Shown in pieces: positions 1,841-19,453 of a stretch of 22,636 bases of DNA. The notes beneath the pieces are model-generated. The model did not search any database. It was not told the DNA's origin and saw nothing but the letters and a program-made list of their open reading frames with translations. Position 1 is the first letter of the stretch, and each line of letters starts with the position of its first letter. Source of the DNA: a virus; the IMG/VR virus record IMGVR_UViG_3300048834_000729, positions 1-22,636 of that record; one strand, 5' to 3'. A program made the translations under genes and the position numbers.

Positions 1841-2434
1841 ATGACCAAGCGAACCGACATCGTCAGCCACCCATTCGCCGCCAACCTGATCCGCCGCAAG
1901 GCCCAGCAGCTCTGCCGTCGCCCGGGCTTTAGCCGGTCCGACGAAGACGACCTGACGCAGGGCATGCTTCTGTACCTGTGGACCGCCTCCAGGCTCTACA
2001 ACCCCGCAAGGGGCAACGTCGAGGCGTTCATCGTCACCGCCGTCCGTAGCTGGATGGACATGGAGGTGCGCCGGCGCCGCGCGGAAATGCGCTTCACCGG
2101 CGTGCCAGACACGTCGCTCGACAGCACGCTCGTCGACTGCGGCGACGGCGACTTCTCTGCGCGGGTGAATCTCATTGGCACGAAGGACGCGGACAGGCGT
2201 CTGGGGCGCGAGGCTCGGGATCTGCTGGCAGATCTCGACCTCCGCGAGGCCGTCGCTCGCGTGACCTCGCGCCTCTCGCAGCGCGAGATGCAGTTCATGC
2301 GAGATGTGATCGACCGTGGTGTCGCTGGGACCGCCCGGAAACGCCGCGTCTCGCGCCGCCAAGTCCTCGCCAAACTCGCCGCGATCCGCGAGCGCTTCAC
2401 GCCCAAGCGGGCAGACGGCGAAACCGCCGCATAG
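1841..2434 (+). CDS. Sigma-70-family RNA polymerase sigma factor (ECF-like)
   Basis: 197 residues. A region-2-like part spans about 14-82: an acidic 'DEDDLTQGM' helix, then 'YNPARGNVEAFI' and 'VRSWMDMEVRRRRAE', the usual core-binding and -10-recognition layout of small sigma factors. A region-4-like HTH lies at about 134-187 ('LREAVARVTSRLSQREMQFM' and then 'KRRVSRRQVLAKLAAIRERF'). The linker 90-130 is longer than in minimal ECF factors. The gene opens the replication cassette, so it could redirect host polymerase to phage promoters. The SD (1832-1836) is buried in a hairpin, which suggests tight translational control. No anti-sigma gene is seen beside it. An alternative is a sigma-like regulator that no longer binds core enzyme. 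The family assignment comes from motif layout and is moderately secure. Confidence 0.75.
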   Translation: MTKRTDIVSHPFAANLIRRKAQQLCRRPGFSRSDEDDLTQGMLLYLWTASRLYNPARGNVEAFIVTAVRSWMDMEVRRRRAEMRFTGVPDTSLDSTLVDCGDGDFSARVNLIGTKDADRRLGREARDLLADLDLREAVARVTSRLSQREMQFMRDVIDRGVAGTARKRRVSRRQVLAKLAAIRERFTPKRADGETAA

Positions 2435-8907: not shown

Positions 8908-9455
8908 ACCGAATCTTTCAATCTTTCACCTATTCTCCGCGCGCGTACGCGGGGTGCGGGTGCATGCGTGTAAGGGAGGTATTGAAAGATTGAAAGATCT
9001 CTCTCTTTCATCATGTACTTTCCCCCTCCCGCCCCGCCGCGCCCATGCAGGTCGCGTGCCAGGCCGCGCCTACCACGAGCCCAACAGCCCGAAGCCTAAC
9101 GGCGGGGGTGAGGGGGTCGGTAGGTACTTCCCGGCCCATGTCGCGTTGCTACGCCCGCGGGAACAGCCGCGCTTCCCGACTGAGTTTGTTTCGCCCGTCC
9201 GAGCGCCGGGACGCCGCGAGGCAGGGTTGGTACGCCGCCCCGCCAACGACGCGACGTGGGCCAACGTGGGCGGACCCGTGGCCAACGGGCGCGGCCCGTA
9301 ACGGGGCAGATCGGGCGGACGCGACGCCCCGGACGGGCCTGTAGCCCGAGCGATCCAACCAGCAATCCAGCGATCCCCGGACCCGGCGCATGTGCGGCGG
9401 GCCACCACGACGCCCCTGCGCCGCGCCCTCGCCGGCGCGCACGACGGAGATCGCT
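8908..9455. other. 548-bp non-coding region between prim-pol and methyltransferase
   Basis: No convincing gene was found. The first ~100 bases hold the repeat cluster described separately. The rest (9011-9455) is very GC-rich, with short self-complementary words such as CCCGT...ACGGG near 9280-9305 and two GCGATCC words near 9350-9372. Open frames here have weak third-position bias and no SD at a plausible start. It may hold promoters, an origin or an untranslated leader for the methyltransferase; nothing specific can be claimed. Confidence 0.6.
8913..9010. repeat. Iteron-like inverted repeat cluster (candidate origin or operator)
   Basis: Two tandem ATCTTTCA words (8913-8920, 8921-8928) are mirrored by two tandem TGAAAGAT words (8983-8990, 8991-8998), a perfect 16-bp inverted repeat with a 54-bp spacer. 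A fifth TCTTTCA lies at 9004-9010. The spacer contains a 10-bp palindrome CGCGTACGCG (8942-8951) and an SD-like AAGGGAGGT (8972-8980). These A/T-rich words stand out in the GC-rich surroundings. The cluster starts 6 bases after the prim-pol stop, so an initiator-binding origin is one reading. A large terminator hairpin followed by a pyrimidine tract (8999-9008) is another. Confidence 0.6.
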
Positions 9456-10820
9456 ATGAATATCGAAACGCTTTCCATCGACGCGGTCCACGAGTACGAC
9501 CGCAACCCCCGCACCATCAACGACGCCGCTATCGACGCGGTCGCTAAGAGCATCGAGGCGTTTGGCTTCAAGGTGCCGATCCTGATCGACGCCGACGGCG
9601 TGATTATCGCCGGGCACACGCGGCTTCGCGCCGCTCGGAAGCTCGGGCTCAAGGAGGTGCCGACCATCCGCGCCGATGATCTGACGCCGGAACAGGTCAA
9701 GGCGCTGCGCATCGCCGACAACAAGGTCGCCACGCTGACCTCGTGGGACATGGAACTCCTGCCGCTGGAGCTCGCCGACCTCAAGGGCGTGGACTTCGAC
9801 CTCGCGCTCATCGGCTTCAGCGCCGAAGACCTCAGCGCGATCATGGCTCCCGCGGGCAGCGAGGGTTTGACTGATCCCGATGATGTGCCGGGCGCACCGG
9901 ACGCAGCGACGACGGTGCCGGGCGACATTTGGGTGCTCGGTAACCACCGGCTGATGTGCGGCGACTCCTCGCAGTCCGAGGACATGGACCGACTGCTCGA
10001 TGGCCAGCCGATCCACCTAGTGAACACGGACCCTCCGTACAACGTGAAGGTCGAGCCGCGATCGAACAACGCGATCGTGGCAGGCTTGAGTTCATTCGCG
10101 CTCGGGAAGAAGGCCAACTCCAACGAGCACGATCAGCAGAGCGCCGACCTCAACCGCTACCCCGAAAAGAGCCGCGCAACGCACAAGAAGCTCCGGGCCA
10201 AGGACCGCCCGCTCGCCAACGACTTCGTGTCCGACGATGAGTTCGACCGTCTGCTCGCGGCATGGTTTGGGAACATCACCCGCGTGCTGATCCCCGGCGG
10301 CACGTTCTACATCTGGGGCGGATACGCCAACTGCGGCAACTACCCGCCGGTGCTCAAGCGCTGCGAGCTGTACTTCGCGCAGGCGATCATCTGGATCAAG
10401 GAGCACCCGGTCCTGACCCGCAAGGACTTCATGGGGAACCACGAGTGGTGCTTCTACGGCTGGAAGGAAGGCGCAGCGCACCGCTTCTTCGGCCCCGCGA
10501 ACGTGCCAGATACGTGGTCGATCAAGAAGGTCAACCCGCAGAGCATGGTGCATCTCACCGAGAAGCCTGTCGAGCTCGCGCGGCGAGCCATCGAGTTCTC
10601 TTCGCGGCCCGGCGAGAACGTGCTCGACCTCTTCGGCGGCAGCGGGAGCACGCTCATCGGCGCGGAGATGACCGGGCGGCGGGCGTTCCTCATGGAGCTC
10701 GACGCGCTCTACTGCGATGTCATTGTGCAGCGCTGGGAGAAGTTCACGGGCCGCAAGGCGGAGCGGCTCTCGGCACAGGGTGTGGCCGAAGAGAAAGCCC
10801 CGGCGAGCGCCGAGGCGTGA
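9456..10820 (+). CDS. ParB-like domain / DNA methyltransferase fusion
   Basis: 454 residues. The ATG at 9456 follows GGAGA (9446-9450). Residues 1-130 are a ParB/sulfiredoxin-like nuclease fold ('DADGVIIAGHTRLRAARKLG', 45-64). The DNA methylase part carries DPPY (192-195, motif IV) before the SAM-binding 'DLFGGSGST' (391-399, motif I), preceded by 'HLTEKPVELARRAI'. This order marks a beta-type N6-adenine or N4-cytosine enzyme. About 60 residues rich in Lys, Asn and Ser (200-255) are inserted after DPPY and may belong to the target-recognition part. Such fusions are common in phages and usually act without a partner nuclease, for example against host restriction or in gene control. No restriction gene is adjacent. 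Confidence 0.9.
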   Translation: MNIETLSIDAVHEYDRNPRTINDAAIDAVAKSIEAFGFKVPILIDADGVIIAGHTRLRAARKLGLKEVPTIRADDLTPEQVKALRIADNKVATLTSWDMELLPLELADLKGVDFDLALIGFSAEDLSAIMAPAGSEGLTDPDDVPGAPDAATTVPGDIWVLGNHRLMCGDSSQSEDMDRLLDGQPIHLVNTDPPYNVKVEPRSNNAIVAGLSSFALGKKANSNEHDQQSADLNRYPEKSRATHKKLRAKDRPLANDFVSDDEFDRLLAAWFGNITRVLIPGGTFYIWGGYANCGNYPPVLKRCELYFAQAIIWIKEHPVLTRKDFMGNHEWCFYGWKEGAAHRFFGPANVPDTWSIKKVNPQSMVHLTEKPVELARRAIEFSSRPGENVLDLFGGSGSTLIGAEMTGRRAFLMELDALYCDVIVQRWEKFTGRKAERLSAQGVAEEKAPASAEA

Positions 10821-11098: not shown

Positions 11099-11566
11099 TC
11101 AGGCTCCCTTCCCGGCGACGAAGACGCCGCGCTCGTGCTTCTTGAAGCGGGCAGTCGTCCCCTTCGCGGCGATCTCCCGGATGATCGCGGCGTAGAGCGT
11201 CGCTTCCGGCGTCTTGCCGCCGGGGCTCTTCCAGAGGCCCTTCGCCTCCATCTGGGCGATCATCTCCGTCGCCCGCATCGGCACCTCCGACGCGGCGAGC
11301 ACCTGCGCGGCGGCGTCGAGGGCGCTGACGCGCTTCGGCTTGGCCTCCTTCGCGGGCTTCGGGGCCTTCGCCGCCTTGGGCGGCTTCGCGGCCTTCTCGC
11401 CCTTGCCCTTCACCGGGGCGGCGGGCTTGCCGTCGATGCGGTCCTTGATCTCGGCGAGGGTCGCCTTCCGGAGGCGGTCCGTCTTGGCCGCACCCTCGGC
11501 GCGGGCGGCGCTCTTGGACATCTTGGGGGTGCGGGGCTTCGCGGCCTTCTTGGTCTTCGTACTCAT
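11099..11566 (-). CDS. HARE-HTH domain protein with linker-histone-like tail
   Basis: 155 residues. The ATG at 11566 is chosen over one 10 codons upstream because GGAG (complement at 11573-11576) is 6 bases from it. Residues 1-79 are dominated by Lys, Ala and Pro, with repeated AKP/KAAK words like eukaryotic histone H1 tails. Residues 80-149 form a HARE-HTH winged helix: '[20 protein letters not shown]', '[20 protein letters not shown]', '[13 protein letters not shown]', 'FKKHERGVF'. This domain is associated with DNA-modification and chromatin-type factors and is proposed to recognise DNA. The combination suggests a DNA-compacting or silencing protein. It lies in a reverse-strand cassette facing the methyltransferase gene, which may be functionally relevant. 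The domain call is fairly secure; the role is inferred. Confidence 0.82.
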
Positions 11567-11595
11567 GATCATCTCCAGAACGGTGGTGCGGAACA

Positions 11596-11614
11596 CCGCC
11601 GCACGTTGCGGCGG
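11596..11614 (-). other. Intergenic hairpin within reverse-strand cassette
   Basis: CCGCCGCA (11596-11603) and TGCGGCGG (11607-11614) form a perfect 8-bp stem with a 3-nt loop, in the 90-bp gap between the HARE-HTH gene and the upstream gene. No U-tract follows. It may be a processing or attenuation site. Confidence 0.4.
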
Positions 11615-12687: not shown

Positions 12688-14962
12688 TCCGCGCAAACTC
12701 AAGCCCAGCGAACTCGCGCGGCTGCTCAACAGCACGCCGATGGGCGAGGTGGTCAGCGAGCGGCAGCTCCACCGGCACCGCACGCGCGCGGGCTTCCGCG
12801 TCGCGGCCGATGGCGATGCGGGCAAGGTCGATCTCTTCCGGTACGTCGCCTGGCTGGTGACCACGCGGCACGAGGCGCTCGCGGAGGCGGCACGGCCGCC
12901 GGAGGGTCTGACCGGGTACGAGGCGATGAAGGAGCGCGCGCGGCTCCGCAACGCCGTGCTCTCGCTCTCAGGGCGCGACATCGGCGACCTTCCGCCGGTC
13001 GCTGACGCGGCGCGGAAGGAGAGGGCGGCGCGGGACTTCCGGTACTTCTGCGACACCTACTTCGCGCAGACGTTCCACCTGCCGTGGTCACCGGATCACC
13101 TGCGGGTGGTCGCCAAGATCGAGCAGGCGGTGCTGGAGGGCGGTCTGTTTGCGATGGCCATGCCGCGCGGGAGCGGCAAGACCAGCCTGTGCGAGGTCGC
13201 GTGCCTTTGGGCGATGCTGTACGGCCACCGTGACTTCGTAGCGCTGATCGGTTCTGACGAGGAGCACGCGGCGGGAATGCTGGAGTCGATCAAGGCGGAA
13301 CTTGAGAACAGCGAGCTGTTGGCCGGTGACTTCCCCGAGGTCTGCCACCCGATCCGCTCGCTGGAGGGCATCCACCAACGGGCCTCGGGGCAGCTCTACC
13401 AGGGGAAGCAGACGCACATCGGGTGGACAGCCCGAGAGATCGTGCTGCCGACGATCCCGGGCTCGCCGGGAGCGGGCGCCATCATCCGCGTGGCGGGCAT
13501 CACCGGCCGCATCCGCGGCATGAAGCACAAGCGGGCGGATGGCACCTCGGCGCGGCCCTCGCTCGTGCTGATCGACGATCCGCAGACAGACGAGAGCGCC
13601 CGGTCGCCATCACAGTGCGCCAACCGTGAGCGCATTCTGGCCGGCGCGATCCTGGGGCTGGCCGGGCCGGGGAAGAAGATCGCCGGGCTGATGACGCTGA
13701 CGGTGGTCCGCCCCGACGATCTTGCCGACCGCATCCTCGACCGTGACAAGCACCCGCAGTGGCAGGGCGAGCGGACGAAGATGATGTACGACTTCCCCGT
13801 GCGGGAGGCGCTTTGGCAGCGGTATGCGGAGTTGCGTGCCGAGGGGCTGCGCCAAGAACGCGGCCTGGCGGACGCCACGGCGTTCTACGCACAGCACCGA
13901 ACAGCGATGGACGAGGGAGCGCGGATCGCCTGGCCGGAGCGCTTCAACCACGATGAGCTCTCGGCCGTGCAGCACGCCATGAACCTGAAGCTCCAAGACG
14001 AGGCGGCGTTCTTTGCGGAGTATCAGAACGAGCCGCTGCCGGAGGTGGAGGCGGCGGATGACCTGCTCACCGCCGACCAGATCGCGGCGAAGGTGAACGG
14101 GCAGGCCCGCGCCGAAGTGCCAATCGGCTGCACGCGGCTGACGATGTTCGTGGACGTGCAGGGGAAGGCCCTGTTCTACATCGTGGCGGCGTGGGAAGAC
14201 GACTTCACCGGCTACATCATCGAGTACGGCACGGAGCCAGACCAGAAAGCGGCATACTTCACTCTTCGAGACGTGCGCCGCACGCTCGGAATCGCCGCTC
14301 CCCGTGCTGGTGTGGAGGGCGCGATCTATGCGGGGCTGGAACGGCTCGTAGCGTCGCACCTGACCCGCGAGTGGCGGCGTGATGACGGCGCGATGGTGCG
14401 CATCGACCGCTGCCTGATCGACGCCAACTGGGGTTCGTCCACGGACGTGGTCTATCAGTTCTGCCGCCAGAGTCCGCACGCGGGCGTGCTCATGCCGAGC
14501 CACGGACGGTACGTCGGGGCGTCGAGCATCCCGTTCAGCGACTTCAAGCGCAAGCGCGGCGACCGAGTGGGGCTCAACTGGCGCATCCCCGTCGTCACCG
14601 GCAAGCGGGCCGTGCGGCACGTCGTCTTTGACACGAACTACTGGAAGTCGTTCGCGCACGCGCGGCTCGCCGTGCCCATGGGTGACCCCGGCTGCCTTTC
14701 CCTCTTCGGGCAGAAGGCGGAGCAGCACCGGCTGCTCGCCGAGCACCTGACCAGCGAGTACCGCGTCAAGACCGAGGGTCGCGGCCGCACGGTTGATGAA
14801 TGGAAACTTCGCGTCGAGGGCCTGGACAACCACTGGCTCGACTGTCTCGTCGGCGCGGCGGTGGCTGCGTCGATGGAGGGGGCGGTGCTGTTCGGGACGG
14901 ACGCTCGAACCGCAGCCCGACCACGGTTGAAACTCTCAGCGATCCAAGGAGGGCGACGCTGA
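12671..14962 (+). CDS. Terminase large subunit, GpA-like
   Basis: 763 residues from the GTG at 12671, with AAGGAG at 12661-12666; an in-frame GTG at 12677 is an alternative. The N-terminal ~63 residues repeat the HTH-like module of the preceding small protein. The ATPase part has Walker A MPRGSGKT (164-171) and Walker B 'LVLIDDP' (298-304). The nuclease part has an acidic strand 'TMFVDVQG' (D495), 'CLIDANWGSSTDVV' and a late 'DNHWLDCLVGAAVAA', consistent with an RNase H-like site. The enzyme cuts concatemeric DNA and pumps it into the prohead. Length and motifs fit lambda gpA-type terminases. It ends in TGATG, overlapping the next start by one base. Confidence 0.9.
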   Translation: MPVAIDPRKLKPSELARLLNSTPMGEVVSERQLHRHRTRAGFRVAADGDAGKVDLFRYVAWLVTTRHEALAEAARPPEGLTGYEAMKERARLRNAVLSLSGRDIGDLPPVADAARKERAARDFRYFCDTYFAQTFHLPWSPDHLRVVAKIEQAVLEGGLFAMAMPRGSGKTSLCEVACLWAMLYGHRDFVALIGSDEEHAAGMLESIKAELENSELLAGDFPEVCHPIRSLEGIHQRASGQLYQGKQTHIGWTAREIVLPTIPGSPGAGAIIRVAGITGRIRGMKHKRADGTSARPSLVLIDDPQTDESARSPSQCANRERILAGAILGLAGPGKKIAGLMTLTVVRPDDLADRILDRDKHPQWQGERTKMMYDFPVREALWQRYAELRAEGLRQERGLADATAFYAQHRTAMDEGARIAWPERFNHDELSAVQHAMNLKLQDEAAFFAEYQNEPLPEVEAADDLLTADQIAAKVNGQARAEVPIGCTRLTMFVDVQGKALFYIVAAWEDDFTGYIIEYGTEPDQKAAYFTLRDVRRTLGIAAPRAGVEGAIYAGLERLVASHLTREWRRDDGAMVRIDRCLIDANWGSSTDVVYQFCRQSPHAGVLMPSHGRYVGASSIPFSDFKRKRGDRVGLNWRIPVVTGKRAVRHVVFDTNYWKSFAHARLAVPMGDPGCLSLFGQKAEQHRLLAEHLTSEYRVKTEGRGRTVDEWKLRVEGLDNHWLDCLVGAAVAASMEGAVLFGTDARTAARPRLKLSAIQGGRR

Positions 14963-15147
14963 TGCCGCGCGTGACACGAGAATCGCAATCTCCGAACGGC
15001 GAGAAGATCGGCCTCGTCTGCCGGGGCTGCGGGTGCCAGCTCTTCCGCGTGGTGTATACCCGCCGTGCCAGTGGAGGACGACTGGTTCGTCGCAGAGAGT
15101 GCCGCCATTGCGGCCGTCGGCTTACCACAAATGAGCGGCCGGTCTGA
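14962..15147 (+). CDS. Small zinc-ribbon protein (NrdR-type finger)
   Basis: 61 residues. The ATG at 14962 overlaps the terminase stop, with AAGGAGGG at 14946-14953. Cysteines C20, C23, C47 and C50 form a four-cysteine ribbon. The second half 'RRRECRHCGRRLTTNERP' closely resembles the zinc ribbon of the NrdR repressor ('RRREC..CG.RFTT.E'), but the ATP-cone domain of NrdR is missing. Nucleic-acid binding is likely. It may assist packaging or act as a regulator translated with the terminase. Confidence 0.75.
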   Translation: MPRVTRESQSPNGEKIGLVCRGCGCQLFRVVYTRRASGGRLVRRRECRHCGRRLTTNERPV

Positions 15148-15491: not shown

Positions 15492-16954
15492 TGCTCGGGC
15501 TGTTCCGATCCAAGCCAACGCCCCCCAAGCCTCACACCCATGTGAAGGGCGGGTTCATTCGCCGGTTCCTCCGGGCGGGGTTCGACTCCGCCGTCACCAA
15601 CGACGGGAACCGGAAGCACTGGGCCAATGCCGACGGCCTGAGCGCCGACTCAGCGGCCTCTCCCGAGGTGCGCCGCGTCCTCCGCAACCGCGCGCGGTAC
15701 GAGGCAGCGAATAACTCCTATGCCAAGGGCATCGTTCTGACGCTCGCCAACGACGTGGTGGGCACCGGCCCGCGCTTGCAACTGCTCACCGAGGACGACG
15801 GAGGCAACGAACGGATCGAGCAGGCGTTCATGGCGTGGGCCAAGGCGGTCGGCCTGCCCGAGAAGCTCCGAACCATGCGGGCGTCCCGCGCCACGGACGG
15901 CGAGGTGTTCGCGGTACTCGTGAGCAACCCGCTCCTGCCCACCCCCGTAAAGCTGGACATCCGTCTCATCGAAGCAGATCAGGTCACCACGCCGGACCTG
16001 TCGATCCTCGACGACAGCGCCGTGGATGGCATCGTGTTCGACGATGCGGGCAACCCGTCGGAGTACCACATCCTCAAGGGCCACCCGGGGGACACCCGCA
16101 CCGGCTTCCTGGGGATCGAGTACGACCGCGTTCCCGCCGAGGCGGTCATCCACTTTTTCCGTGCCGAGCGCCCGGGCCAAAGCCGGGGCGTGCCGGACAT
16201 CACGCCGGCGCTCCCGCTTTTCGCGCAGCTGCGCCGCTTCACGCTCGCGGTGCTCGGCGCGGCCGAGACCGCCGCGGACTTCGCGGGCATCCTCTACACC
16301 GATGCTCCGGCGAATGGCGAGGCGGAGAGCGTCGAGCCGTTGGACGCCATCGAGCTCGAAGCGCGGTCACTGCTGACGATGCCGGGCGGTTGGAAGATGG
16401 CGCAGGTGCAGGCCGAGCAGCCCGCGACCACCTATGCCGAGTTCAAGCGCGAGATCCTCAATGAGATCGCCCGCTGCCTGAACATGCCGTTCAACGTCGC
16501 GGCCTGCAACTCTTCGGGGTACAACTACGCCTCGGGCCGTCTTGACCACCAGACGTACTTCAAGAGCATCCGCGTTGAGCAGGACCACATGGCGTGCGTC
16601 GTGCTCGATCGCCTGCTCATGGCCTGGCTCCGCGAGGCGGTGGTCGTCTCCGGCCTGCTGCCGCTGCGCATCCGGACGCTCGTCGCCACCGGCGAGGGGC
16701 TCGCGCACCAGTGGTTCTGGGATGGGAACGAACACGTCGATCCCGCCAAGGAGGCGACGGCGCAGCAGACGCGGTTGTCGTCGCACACCACGACGCTAGC
16801 CAGCGAGTACGCCAAGCAAGGCCGTGACTGGGAGAGCGAGCTCCGCCAGCGCGCCAAGGAAGTCGCGCTGATGAAGGAGCTGGGGCTGGTCGTCGAACAG
16901 GCGCAGCCGCTCCAGCCGACGCCCGCGCGCGAGGAGGACGACCATGCCGAATGA
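15488..16954 (+). CDS. Phage portal protein, lambda gpB family
   Basis: 488 residues from ATG 15488 (a second ATG follows directly; GGAGGG lies at 15479-15484). The layout is that of lambda-type portals: basic N-terminus, 'RARYEAANNSYAKGIVLTLA', 'NDVVGTGPRLQ', 'IRLIEADQV', 'RPGQSRGVPDITPAL', and 'CLNMPFNVAACNSSGYNYAS' followed by 'SGRLDHQTYFKSI'. The C-terminus is helical and acidic and probably disordered. A dodecameric portal forms the unique vertex through which DNA enters and to which the tail joins. The gene overlaps the capsid fusion gene by 11 bases. Confidence 0.92.
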   Translation: MMLGLFRSKPTPPKPHTHVKGGFIRRFLRAGFDSAVTNDGNRKHWANADGLSADSAASPEVRRVLRNRARYEAANNSYAKGIVLTLANDVVGTGPRLQLLTEDDGGNERIEQAFMAWAKAVGLPEKLRTMRASRATDGEVFAVLVSNPLLPTPVKLDIRLIEADQVTTPDLSILDDSAVDGIVFDDAGNPSEYHILKGHPGDTRTGFLGIEYDRVPAEAVIHFFRAERPGQSRGVPDITPALPLFAQLRRFTLAVLGAAETAADFAGILYTDAPANGEAESVEPLDAIELEARSLLTMPGGWKMAQVQAEQPATTYAEFKREILNEIARCLNMPFNVAACNSSGYNYASGRLDHQTYFKSIRVEQDHMACVVLDRLLMAWLREAVVVSGLLPLRIRTLVATGEGLAHQWFWDGNEHVDPAKEATAQQTRLSSHTTTLASEYAKQGRDWESELRQRAKEVALMKELGLVVEQAQPLQPTPAREEDDHAE

Positions 16955-19040
16955 GCGACTCCTGAATCTGTGCGCGCCCGTCGAAGGCTGGATTGAGGCC
17001 GCTGCCACGGCCGATGCCGGTGGCCCAGCGCTGCGCCGATTCTCCATGACAGCGTATACCGGCGGTCCCATGATGCTTGCGGGGTGGCCCCACCCTGTCG
17101 TCGTCGATCTGGCGGGGCTCCAGGTCGCGGGCGGCGGAACCAAGAGCCGGCCCATCCTCAAGGACCACAACCGCTCCCTCATCGTTGGGCACACCGACGG
17201 GGTTCGGATCGAGGGCTCCCAACTGCTGGTCTCCGGCGTGATCTCCGGAGCAGGCCCGGTGGCCCGCGAGATCATCGAGAGCAGCCGCAACGGGTTTCCG
17301 TGGCAGGCGTCGCTCGGCGCGCTGGCGCAGCCGGGCGGGATGGAGTTCATTCCCAAGGGCAAGAAGGCCGTCGCCAACGGCCGCGAGTTTGAGGGGCCGG
17401 TCCACATCGCCCGCCGCAGCGTGCTGGGCGAGGTGAGCTTCGTGGCCCTCGGCGCAGACGACAACACGACCGCGAGCGTCGCGGCGGCAGCGATCAAGGA
17501 GGACGACATGACGTTCGATCAGTGGCTCACCGCCAAGGGCTTCGATGCCGCCACGCTCAGCGACAACCAGAAGGCCAGCCTTCAGGCGATGTTCGACGCG
17601 GAGGAGAAGGCGACCGCCGTCACCGCAACCGCCGTGGAGACGGACCCCGGTGCCAGCGACGTGATCGCGCAACTCCGTGCGGAGGCCGCCACCGAGGCCA
17701 AGCGCATCGCCGATGTGCGGCGCATCTGCGCTGTCGGGGGCGGCAAGCACGCGGAGATCGAAGCGAAGGCCATCACCGAGGGATGGGACGTGACCAAGAC
17801 CGAGCTCGCGGTGCTCCGCGCCGAGCGCCCGGCCCTGGCCTCAGGCGGGGTCCGCCGTGACGCGGACCCAGCTCAGGCGGGGCGTGCGATCGAGGCGGCA
17901 CTGTGTCTGTCCGCGGGCATTCCGGAGTCCGCCGTCGCCAAGTGGTACGACCAGCGCACGATGAACGCCGCGGTGTCGGGCAACCTCAGCGGCGCGGGCA
18001 TCCACAGCGTCCTGGCCTACGCGATCGAGGCGGCGGGCGGCTCGGCTCGCATGCGCCGCGTGGACAACGACTTCATCCAGACCGCCTTCGAGGCGAACAC
18101 GGTGCTGCGCCAGCAGGAGCGGGAGATCCGCGCTTCAAGCGGGTTCACGACGATCTCGCTGTCGGGCATCCTGTCGAACGTCGCCAACAAGACCATGCTG
18201 GCGGCGTACACCGCCGTCGAGAGCGTGGTGGCGATGTTCAGCGCCGAGACGGACGTGAGCGACTTCAAGGAAGTCACCCGCTACCGGCTCACCGGCACAG
18301 GGGTCTTCGAGAAGGTCGGCCCGGACGGCGAGCTCAAGCACGCCGGTCTGTCCGAGCAGGCGTACACGAACAAGGTCGAGACGTTCGGCAAGATGTTCGC
18401 GCTGAACCGGCAGATGATGATCAACGACGACCTGGGGGCGTTCCTCCAGATCCCGCGCATCATCGGCCGCATGTCCGCGCTCAAGCGCGAGGAGGCGGTG
18501 TTCGAGCTGCTCCTGGCAAACCCGGCGGCCTTCTTCAGCGTCGGCAACAAGAACTTCATCTCCGGCGCGGCGACCAACCTCAGCATCGATTCGCTCACGC
18601 AGGCGGAGCAGGCGTTCCTCGATCAGACGGACACCGACGGCAAGCCCATCCTGCTCTCTCCTTCGGTGCTCCTCGTCCCGTCGGCGCTGAAGGTCACGGC
18701 CCAGGTGCTCATGACCGAGACGCGGATCAACGAGACGACCACGACGGACAAGGGCAAGCCCGCCGCCAACCCGCATGCGGGCAAGTGGAAGCCCGTCGCC
18801 AGCCCCTACCTCAACGCGCAGGGACTTGCGGGCGGGAGCGCCAAGGCTTGGTACCTGTTCGCCAATCCGGCGGACGTGGCCGCGATCGAGATCGCGTACC
18901 TGCGCGGCAAGCGCACCCCGACGATCGAGAGCGGCGACACCGATTTCAACCAGCTCGGGATGCAGTGGCGTGGCTATTTCGACTTCGGCGTCGCCATGCA
19001 GGACTCCCGCGCGGCGGTCAAGAGCAAGGGTGAGGTCTGA
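16944..19040 (+). CDS. Prohead protease / major capsid protein fusion
   Basis: 698 residues. The ATG at 16944 follows GAGGAGG (16931-16937) and overlaps the portal gene. Residues ~35-175 resemble HK97-type prohead proteases: 'ILKDHNRSLIVGHT' with candidate catalytic H75, 'FPWQASLGA' with candidate S123, and 'ARRSVLGEVSFVALG'. Residues ~189-310 are helical and charged, like a scaffold or delta domain. Residues ~330-698 are the capsid part ('SLSGILSNVANKTMLAAYTA', 'FALNRQMMINDDLGAFLQIP', 'YLRGKRTPTIESG'). An internal in-frame ATG (17508, M189) has its own strong SD, so capsid chains without the protease can be made in excess. The fused arrangement is a known phage protein type. It ends overlapping the decoration gene as TGATG. 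Confidence 0.9.
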   Translation: MPNERLLNLCAPVEGWIEAAATADAGGPALRRFSMTAYTGGPMMLAGWPHPVVVDLAGLQVAGGGTKSRPILKDHNRSLIVGHTDGVRIEGSQLLVSGVISGAGPVAREIIESSRNGFPWQASLGALAQPGGMEFIPKGKKAVANGREFEGPVHIARRSVLGEVSFVALGADDNTTASVAAAAIKEDDMTFDQWLTAKGFDAATLSDNQKASLQAMFDAEEKATAVTATAVETDPGASDVIAQLRAEAATEAKRIADVRRICAVGGGKHAEIEAKAITEGWDVTKTELAVLRAERPALASGGVRRDADPAQAGRAIEAALCLSAGIPESAVAKWYDQRTMNAAVSGNLSGAGIHSVLAYAIEAAGGSARMRRVDNDFIQTAFEANTVLRQQEREIRASSGFTTISLSGILSNVANKTMLAAYTAVESVVAMFSAETDVSDFKEVTRYRLTGTGVFEKVGPDGELKHAGLSEQAYTNKVETFGKMFALNRQMMINDDLGAFLQIPRIIGRMSALKREEAVFELLLANPAAFFSVGNKNFISGAATNLSIDSLTQAEQAFLDQTDTDGKPILLSPSVLLVPSALKVTAQVLMTETRINETTTTDKGKPAANPHAGKWKPVASPYLNAQGLAGGSAKAWYLFANPADVAAIEIAYLRGKRTPTIESGDTDFNQLGMQWRGYFDFGVAMQDSRAAVKSKGEV
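17508..19040 (+). CDS. Internal in-frame start: scaffold + major capsid protein
   Basis: Within the protease/capsid gene an in-frame ATG at 17508 is preceded by AAGGAGG at 17496-17502 with 5-base spacing, the best SD in the head region. Translation from here would give 510 residues beginning 'MTFDQWLTAKGFDAATLSDN', exactly at the junction between the protease-like part and the helical scaffold-like part. This is comparable to lambda C/Nu3, where a scaffold is translated from inside the protease gene in the same frame. It would allow many capsid subunits per protease copy. Confidence 0.65.
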   Translation: MTFDQWLTAKGFDAATLSDNQKASLQAMFDAEEKATAVTATAVETDPGASDVIAQLRAEAATEAKRIADVRRICAVGGGKHAEIEAKAITEGWDVTKTELAVLRAERPALASGGVRRDADPAQAGRAIEAALCLSAGIPESAVAKWYDQRTMNAAVSGNLSGAGIHSVLAYAIEAAGGSARMRRVDNDFIQTAFEANTVLRQQEREIRASSGFTTISLSGILSNVANKTMLAAYTAVESVVAMFSAETDVSDFKEVTRYRLTGTGVFEKVGPDGELKHAGLSEQAYTNKVETFGKMFALNRQMMINDDLGAFLQIPRIIGRMSALKREEAVFELLLANPAAFFSVGNKNFISGAATNLSIDSLTQAEQAFLDQTDTDGKPILLSPSVLLVPSALKVTAQVLMTETRINETTTTDKGKPAANPHAGKWKPVASPYLNAQGLAGGSAKAWYLFANPADVAAIEIAYLRGKRTPTIESGDTDFNQLGMQWRGYFDFGVAMQDSRAAVKSKGEV

Positions 19041-19453
19041 TGGCAGACGAAGTGCCGATCGGAGGCGGGACCGGCGGCGAGGTCGAACCCGGTGGTCCCC
19101 CAGGAGGTTCATTCATGCCAGCGAAGTTCATTCAGGATGGCGCAGCGCTCGATTACACCCCGGTCGCGGACACGCCCGCGGGCACGATCGTCGTGCAGAG
19201 CGAGATGGTCGGGGTCACCCGCGTGGACCTCAAGGCGGGCCAACTCGGCTCGCTGGCGGTCACCGGCGTCTTCGAGTTCCCCAAGGCCCTCGGCGTCGGC
19301 AGCGCGATTCCGATCGGGACGCTGACGTACTGGGATGCCGGTGGTCAGGTCGCCACCAAGAACGCGGCTGCCGGGGCCAACAAGCTCATCGGCAAGTGCA
19401 TCAAGACCACCGTGGACGCGGACACGGTCGTTCGCGTGCGGATGTCGCAGTGA
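19040..19453 (+). CDS. DUF2190 family capsid decoration-like protein
   Basis: 137 residues from the ATG at 19040 (overlaps the capsid stop as TGATG; SD-like GGTGAGG at 19029-19035). A second in-frame ATG at 19115 has a better SD, AGGAGG at 19102-19107, and gives 112 residues starting 'MPAKFIQDGAALDYTPVADT'. The extra 25 residues are Gly/Pro-rich and look disordered. 'PAGTIVVQSEMVGVTRVDLK', 'AGQLGSLAVTGVFEFPKA' and 'IPIGTLTYWDAGGQV' are typical of DUF2190, small beta proteins next to capsid genes, comparable in position to lambda gpD. It probably decorates and stabilises the head. Confidence 0.8.
   Translation: MADEVPIGGGTGGEVEPGGPPGGSFMPAKFIQDGAALDYTPVADTPAGTIVVQSEMVGVTRVDLKAGQLGSLAVTGVFEFPKALGVGSAIPIGTLTYWDAGGQVATKNAAAGANKLIGKCIKTTVDADTVVRVRMSQ

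Follow-up and report, generated by a model that had tools for sequence, protein, structure and literature searches.

An internal translation start signal at the protease border of a phage protease-scaffold-capsid fusion gene, with a predicted nested capsid product

The fusion gene and its domain border

The stretch of DNA analyzed here, referred to as the window, comprises 22,636 nucleotides of IMG/VR virus record IMGVR_UViG_3300048834_000729. It carries an open reading frame in which a prohead protease, a scaffold, and a major capsid protein are joined, and which begins before the portal gene has ended (Table 1). A cement/decoration ORF (19040-19453) has a possible start at 19040 that overlaps the fusion stop; the Shine-Dalgarno (SD) sequence CAGGAGG (-11.5) and the match to PF09956 fit a start at 19115, and the longer call from 19040 is probably wrong. 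Elsewhere in the window, positions 9390-10820 (+) encode a fusion of a ParB N-terminal domain with an N6/N4 DNA methylase, and positions 11099-11596 (-) a histone-H1-like stretch, rich in Lys, Ala, and Pro, that is followed by a HARE-HTH domain (E 8e-9). The small protein encoded at 1841-2434 (+) matched sigma-70 region 2 just above cut-off (25.8 bits), and is possibly a phage-encoded sigma-like factor.

Table 1. Coordinates of the fusion gene, its parts, and its two start signals in the window.
Feature	Position	Strand	Basis or detail
SD AGGAGG before ATG 16944, the full-length start (spacer 6 nt)	16932..16937	+	sequence; SD energy -11.6
Fusion ORF, 698 aa, 73.8 kDa: prohead protease + scaffold + major capsid	16944..19040	+	
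Predicted protease domain, residues ~30-173	17031..17462	+	AlphaFold model; PHROG 3244 head maturation protease; invariant columns
Disordered, length-variable linker, residues 174-188	17463..17507	+	pLDDT < 50 at 174-187; alignment
Internal Shine-Dalgarno AAGGAGG	17496..17502	+	sequence and conservation
Spacer ACGAC, 5 nt	17503-17507		between AAGGAGG and ATG
Internal in-frame start codon ATG, Met189	17508..17510	+	invariant in 16-sequence alignment; 131/179 in wider alignment
Predicted nested product, scaffold + major capsid, 510 aa, 54.4 kDa	17508..19040	+	inference
HK97-fold / Mu gpT-like capsid region, residues ~395-696	18126..19031	+	PF25209 E=4e-43, PF10124 E=6e-7; Foldseek

Pfam, NCBIfam, and PHROGs concur in identifying a prohead protease with a Mu-gpT/HK97-type capsid downstream of it. 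Phage_capsid_4 (PF25209) matched residues 395-694 with 149 bits against a gathering cut-off of 27 bits, and the best PDB matches of the capsid region in Foldseek were capsids and encapsulins. NCBIfam NF045541 matched with 279.9 bits (E 4.7e-83), below its curated cut-off of 525 bits, making the window protein a clear relative of that family outside its curated bounds. Among the relatives, protease and capsid lay in one uninterrupted frame at 178 of 182 loci, as defines a protease/MCP fusion gene. Fusion being so general, it is evidently old, and its occurrence across many assemblies led us to reject an assembly error joining two genes. Two loci were split. At one (L127) the break falls inside the scaffold. 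At the other (L024, 600-1330) the frame changes in the scaffold region and AAGGA is kept before the border ATG; this is probably a sequencing error or a decayed, frameshifted copy.

An AlphaFold model of the fusion protein, built on 61 relatives (mean pLDDT 82), placed the first scaffold helix at residue 191 and a scaffold-like helical region onward from it; His75 and Ser123 were invariant in the alignment columns of the protease domain. Because linker disorder ends and scaffold helices start there in the model, a stand-alone scaffold-capsid protein would be expected to begin at Met189. The original prediction had set an internal ribosome-binding site exactly at the border between the protease and scaffold/capsid parts, and the modeled succession of protease, disorder, and scaffold helices agrees with that placement. 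Searches of experimental structures with the family profile matched only partial gpT-type capsids, the RcKemmy and Dulem capsid queries gave no match, and the matches listed for the F10 query were all ClpP; these searches thus yielded no experimental N-terminus for comparison.

The internal site and its conservation in fused relatives

Positions 17490-17515 contain ...gatcAAGGAGGacgacATGacg, and inspection of these letters and of the reading frame confirmed the predicted AAGGAGG, 5-base spacing, and in-frame ATG at 17508. This ATG is codon 189, lying 188 codons downstream of, and in frame with, the ORF start at 16944. When both strands of the window were scanned for AAGGAGG-N4-9-ATG, two matches were found where 0.13 were expected from shuffles. 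The other match, at ATG 14962 (region 14946-15147, +), probably opens a small ORF that is Cys-rich and zinc-ribbon-like, its AAGGAGG overlapping the terminase stop. The SD energy of the internal site was -11.2 kcal/mol, scored with a canonical anti-SD tail that may not be the host's own; the host would be a planctomycete, judging from relatives found in planctomycete genomes, the closest mostly of Phycisphaerales. Under this scoring, the internal site had the best SD among the 22 ATGs of any frame inside the gene (runner-up, -7.0), as compared with -11.6 at the full-length start and -11.5 at the cement-protein start. Across the relatives, the SD energies of internal and full-length starts were equal on average. 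Since the SD of the full-length start is just as strong, a dosage of few proteases to many capsid subunits cannot be read from the sequence, and SD strength was discarded as proof of a capsid excess.

Conservation was assessed in relatives collected by two alignment-driven scans, the selecting peptides of which lie away from the border site; one earlier search used a peptide pattern that overlaps Met189, unlike the patterns of the later scans. Thinning at 85% identity left 90 fused relatives, mostly of Planctomycetota and still not fully independent, and 78% of these had an ATG with an SD of -6.5 or below within 12 codons of the border. Other in-frame ATGs of the same relatives had such an SD in 7.8% of 1089 cases, a control based on single ATG positions, whereas the border test took the best ATG within 12 codons. 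A position scan removes the concern over unequal windows, because it applies the same rule everywhere along the gene; it gave a single sharp peak of 0.78 at residues 186-192, against a mean of 0.037 and a maximum of 0.21 elsewhere. The original prediction would have been undermined by absence of the SD in close homologs, and the SD-ATG pair was instead kept in close homologs and in most of the distant ones, while the encoded peptide was free to change.

What is conserved is a nucleotide signal. The four residues preceding the Met formed 69 different tetrapeptides in 77 sites, on which ground we rejected peptide conservation as the cause of the SD. GGAG occurred at the border in all three codon phases (61, 9, and 1 sites), and the SD-ATG spacing was 5-9 nt in nearly all sites. 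When codons were resampled synonymously from each gene's own usage, the mean SD pairing was -6.73 (sd 0.23) as compared to the observed -8.38, with none of 500 trials as good. The RNA near the border ATG was less folded than at GC-matched places in the same genes and was folded similarly to that at the full-length starts. A free peptide, phase shifts, constrained spacing, excess pairing, and low RNA structure are the marks of a translation start. Conservation, the codon-phase changes, and the synonymous null also led us to reject a chance SD in a GC-rich gene.

On a tree of the capsid domain with 90 rows, the site was present in 76 and absent in 14, requiring about eight changes, at least five of them forced by well-supported branches of what is a quick, unrooted tree. 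The pattern suggests that the site was there ancestrally and disappeared several times, Rhodopirellula-type prophages being the clearest case. Four prophages of Rhodopirellula/Pirellulaceae type (L051, L057, L134, and L146) carry fusions with no ATG plus SD near the border. In three other rows scored as lacking the site (L164, L174, and L180), a moderate SD precedes an ATG that lies 11-12 codons downstream, and the true losses may therefore be fewer than 14 rows imply. As several lineages have fusions with no such site, the internal start is not obligatory for the fusion architecture.

Other fusion groups, unfused relatives, and known nested genes

The border site recurs in other groups. All 32 S78-like fusions had a border ATG, preceded in 31 by an SD of -5 or below and in all codon phases, and the site was present in 12 of 12 ClpP-like fusions with mostly moderate SDs (-5.6 to -8.7). 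Among 14 actinophage-type fusions, it was found in five of five members of the RRH1/GMA5/Coeur/McGonagall/GRU3 subgroup; five fusions had no site, and a few others had weaker candidates. An SD-like ATG also stands at the border in the isolated fusion phages F10, mEp460, Fels-1, RcKemmy, PY223, and MinM1.

In gut phages related to Dulem virus 34, 76 of the 77 loci that could be classified have the protease and the scaffold-capsid as separate genes meeting at the border. Nearly every capsid gene is preceded by its own GGAGG-type SD, and the capsid ATG lies from slightly before to 37 nt after the protease stop. The lone fused locus of the set (L434) retains GAGGAGG and an ATG inside the fusion. 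Profile alignments found both halves, protease and scaffold-capsid, to be homologous between the window family and the Dulem virus 34 type. Given that homology and the meeting of the two genes at the border, the start inside the fusions is equivalent to that of the unfused capsid gene.

Two well-studied phages have nested starts in a head protease gene, Z in gene I of Mu and nu3 in gene C of lambda, and both are annotated in the reference records. In Mu, the in-frame internal start likewise lies at the protease/scaffold border, and the Z site (CAGGAG, 9 nt, ATG, with an SD of -7.4, following QQENKP) looks just like those of the window family. Mu gpT is homologous to the capsid half of the window family (hhalign probability 96, E 4.5e-9), but T is a gene of its own, so that the nested product in Mu is scaffold only, whereas the window gene has scaffold and capsid in one frame. 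No similarity of Mu I to the window-family protease was detectable with the hhalign family profile (probability 0.2), and Mu I was rejected as its homolog. In lambda, the nested in-frame start within C, the frame of which was checked, likewise gives the scaffold; C, however, is annotated as an S49 peptidase, E (capsid) is separate instead of sharing the frame, and the SD before the Nu3 start is weak (-2.7 in the same scoring), unlike that of the window site. The comparison originally drawn with lambda C/Nu3, with the capsid itself as the nested product, is thus apt, although Mu I/Z plus T is the closer precedent.

The fusion families NF045541, NF045540, PHROG 4523, and PHROG 133 share the domain order of the window protein and are strongly homologous to it (best models, E 5e-83 and 2e-77), although the window protein falls below the NCBIfam cut-offs; the families are described as single fusion proteins, with an internal start absent from the description. 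Protease/capsid fusions have been remarked upon as unusual (PMC5513430). The accessible literature, subscription papers not included, yielded no description of an internal start in such fusions.

A two-product reading of the fusion gene

Three other accounts of the border site were considered. Were only the full-length fusion made, with the capsid released by self-cleavage in the linker, the SD could be incidental to a conserved linker peptide (Lys-Glu-Asp) encoded in a GC-rich genome. KEDD is indeed common in close relatives, usually with AAG GAG as its first codons, and some lineages evidently cope with a fusion having no internal start. The SD is nevertheless conserved in several codon phases where the peptide is not, and the synonymous null was beaten 500 to 0; this account also leaves the Met at fixed spacing and the reduced RNA structure unexplained, and unfused relatives have a gene start at the border. 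We consider it very unlikely.

The site might instead be the little-used relic of a formerly separate capsid gene, fused to the protease gene by loss of the protease stop codon. The start at the homologous place in unfused relatives and the loss of the site in some lineages would fit such a history. Fusion is the rule among the relatives, however, and because fused relatives at 39-50% identity retain the site, selection appears to maintain it, which leaves a relic a shade less credible than an SD incidental to the linker peptide. We give least credence of all to an SD acting as a ribosome pause site that aids folding of the protease ahead of scaffold and capsid, with no initiation. Although a domain border is where a pause could help, pausing needs no ATG, yet one is kept at 5-9 nt spacing, the RNA is as little structured as at starts, and the place corresponds to a gene start in unfused relatives.

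We therefore favor, with high confidence, the reading of ORF 16944-19040 as a two-product gene yielding the full-length protease-scaffold-capsid and a nested 510-aa scaffold-capsid. Initiation at 16944 would give a 74-kDa polyprotein, and ribosomes using the internal SD and ATG (17496-17510) would produce a 54-kDa scaffold-capsid devoid of protease, presumably the more abundant form. The full-length start, overlapping the portal gene, may be coupled to portal translation. Both products would co-assemble via their common scaffold-capsid part, and the protease would as a consequence be tethered to only a fraction of the prohead subunits. How much protease the shell encloses would depend on the ratio of the two starts, and in maturation the protease would then cut itself and the scaffold free. 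The 14 of 90 relatives and five of 14 actinophage-type fusions that are devoid of the site count against this two-product reading, as do the moderate SDs of the ClpP-like fusions and, where dosage is concerned, the equal SD of the full-length start.

The principle of a nested start in a protease gene is known from Mu and lambda. What appears to be new is the capsid itself as the predicted nested product, since scaffold and capsid share one frame, and this across several groups annotated as simple fusions. As the second start signal is evolutionarily conserved, many genes catalogued as protease-capsid fusions probably encode two proteins. We think it likely, if with less assurance than for the window gene, that two products come from most protease/major capsid fusion genes of Planctomycetota and Proteobacteria phages, and from part of those of Cyanobacteria and Actinobacteria phages. 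On this view the shell consists mainly of the nested scaffold-capsid, and the full-length form is a minor component that carries the protease and tethers it to the shell; in lineages that have lost the internal start, every shell subunit would be protease-tethered.

An annotated fusion protein would in this way become a two-product gene, which would explain how a protease is tolerated in fusion with a capsid protein of which hundreds of copies are required, and would offer a testable picture of prohead protease dosing. The predicted capsid N-terminus would change for a large set of phages, with a bearing on structure work and gene calling, and natural comparisons of phages with and without the site are available for studies of capsid maturation.
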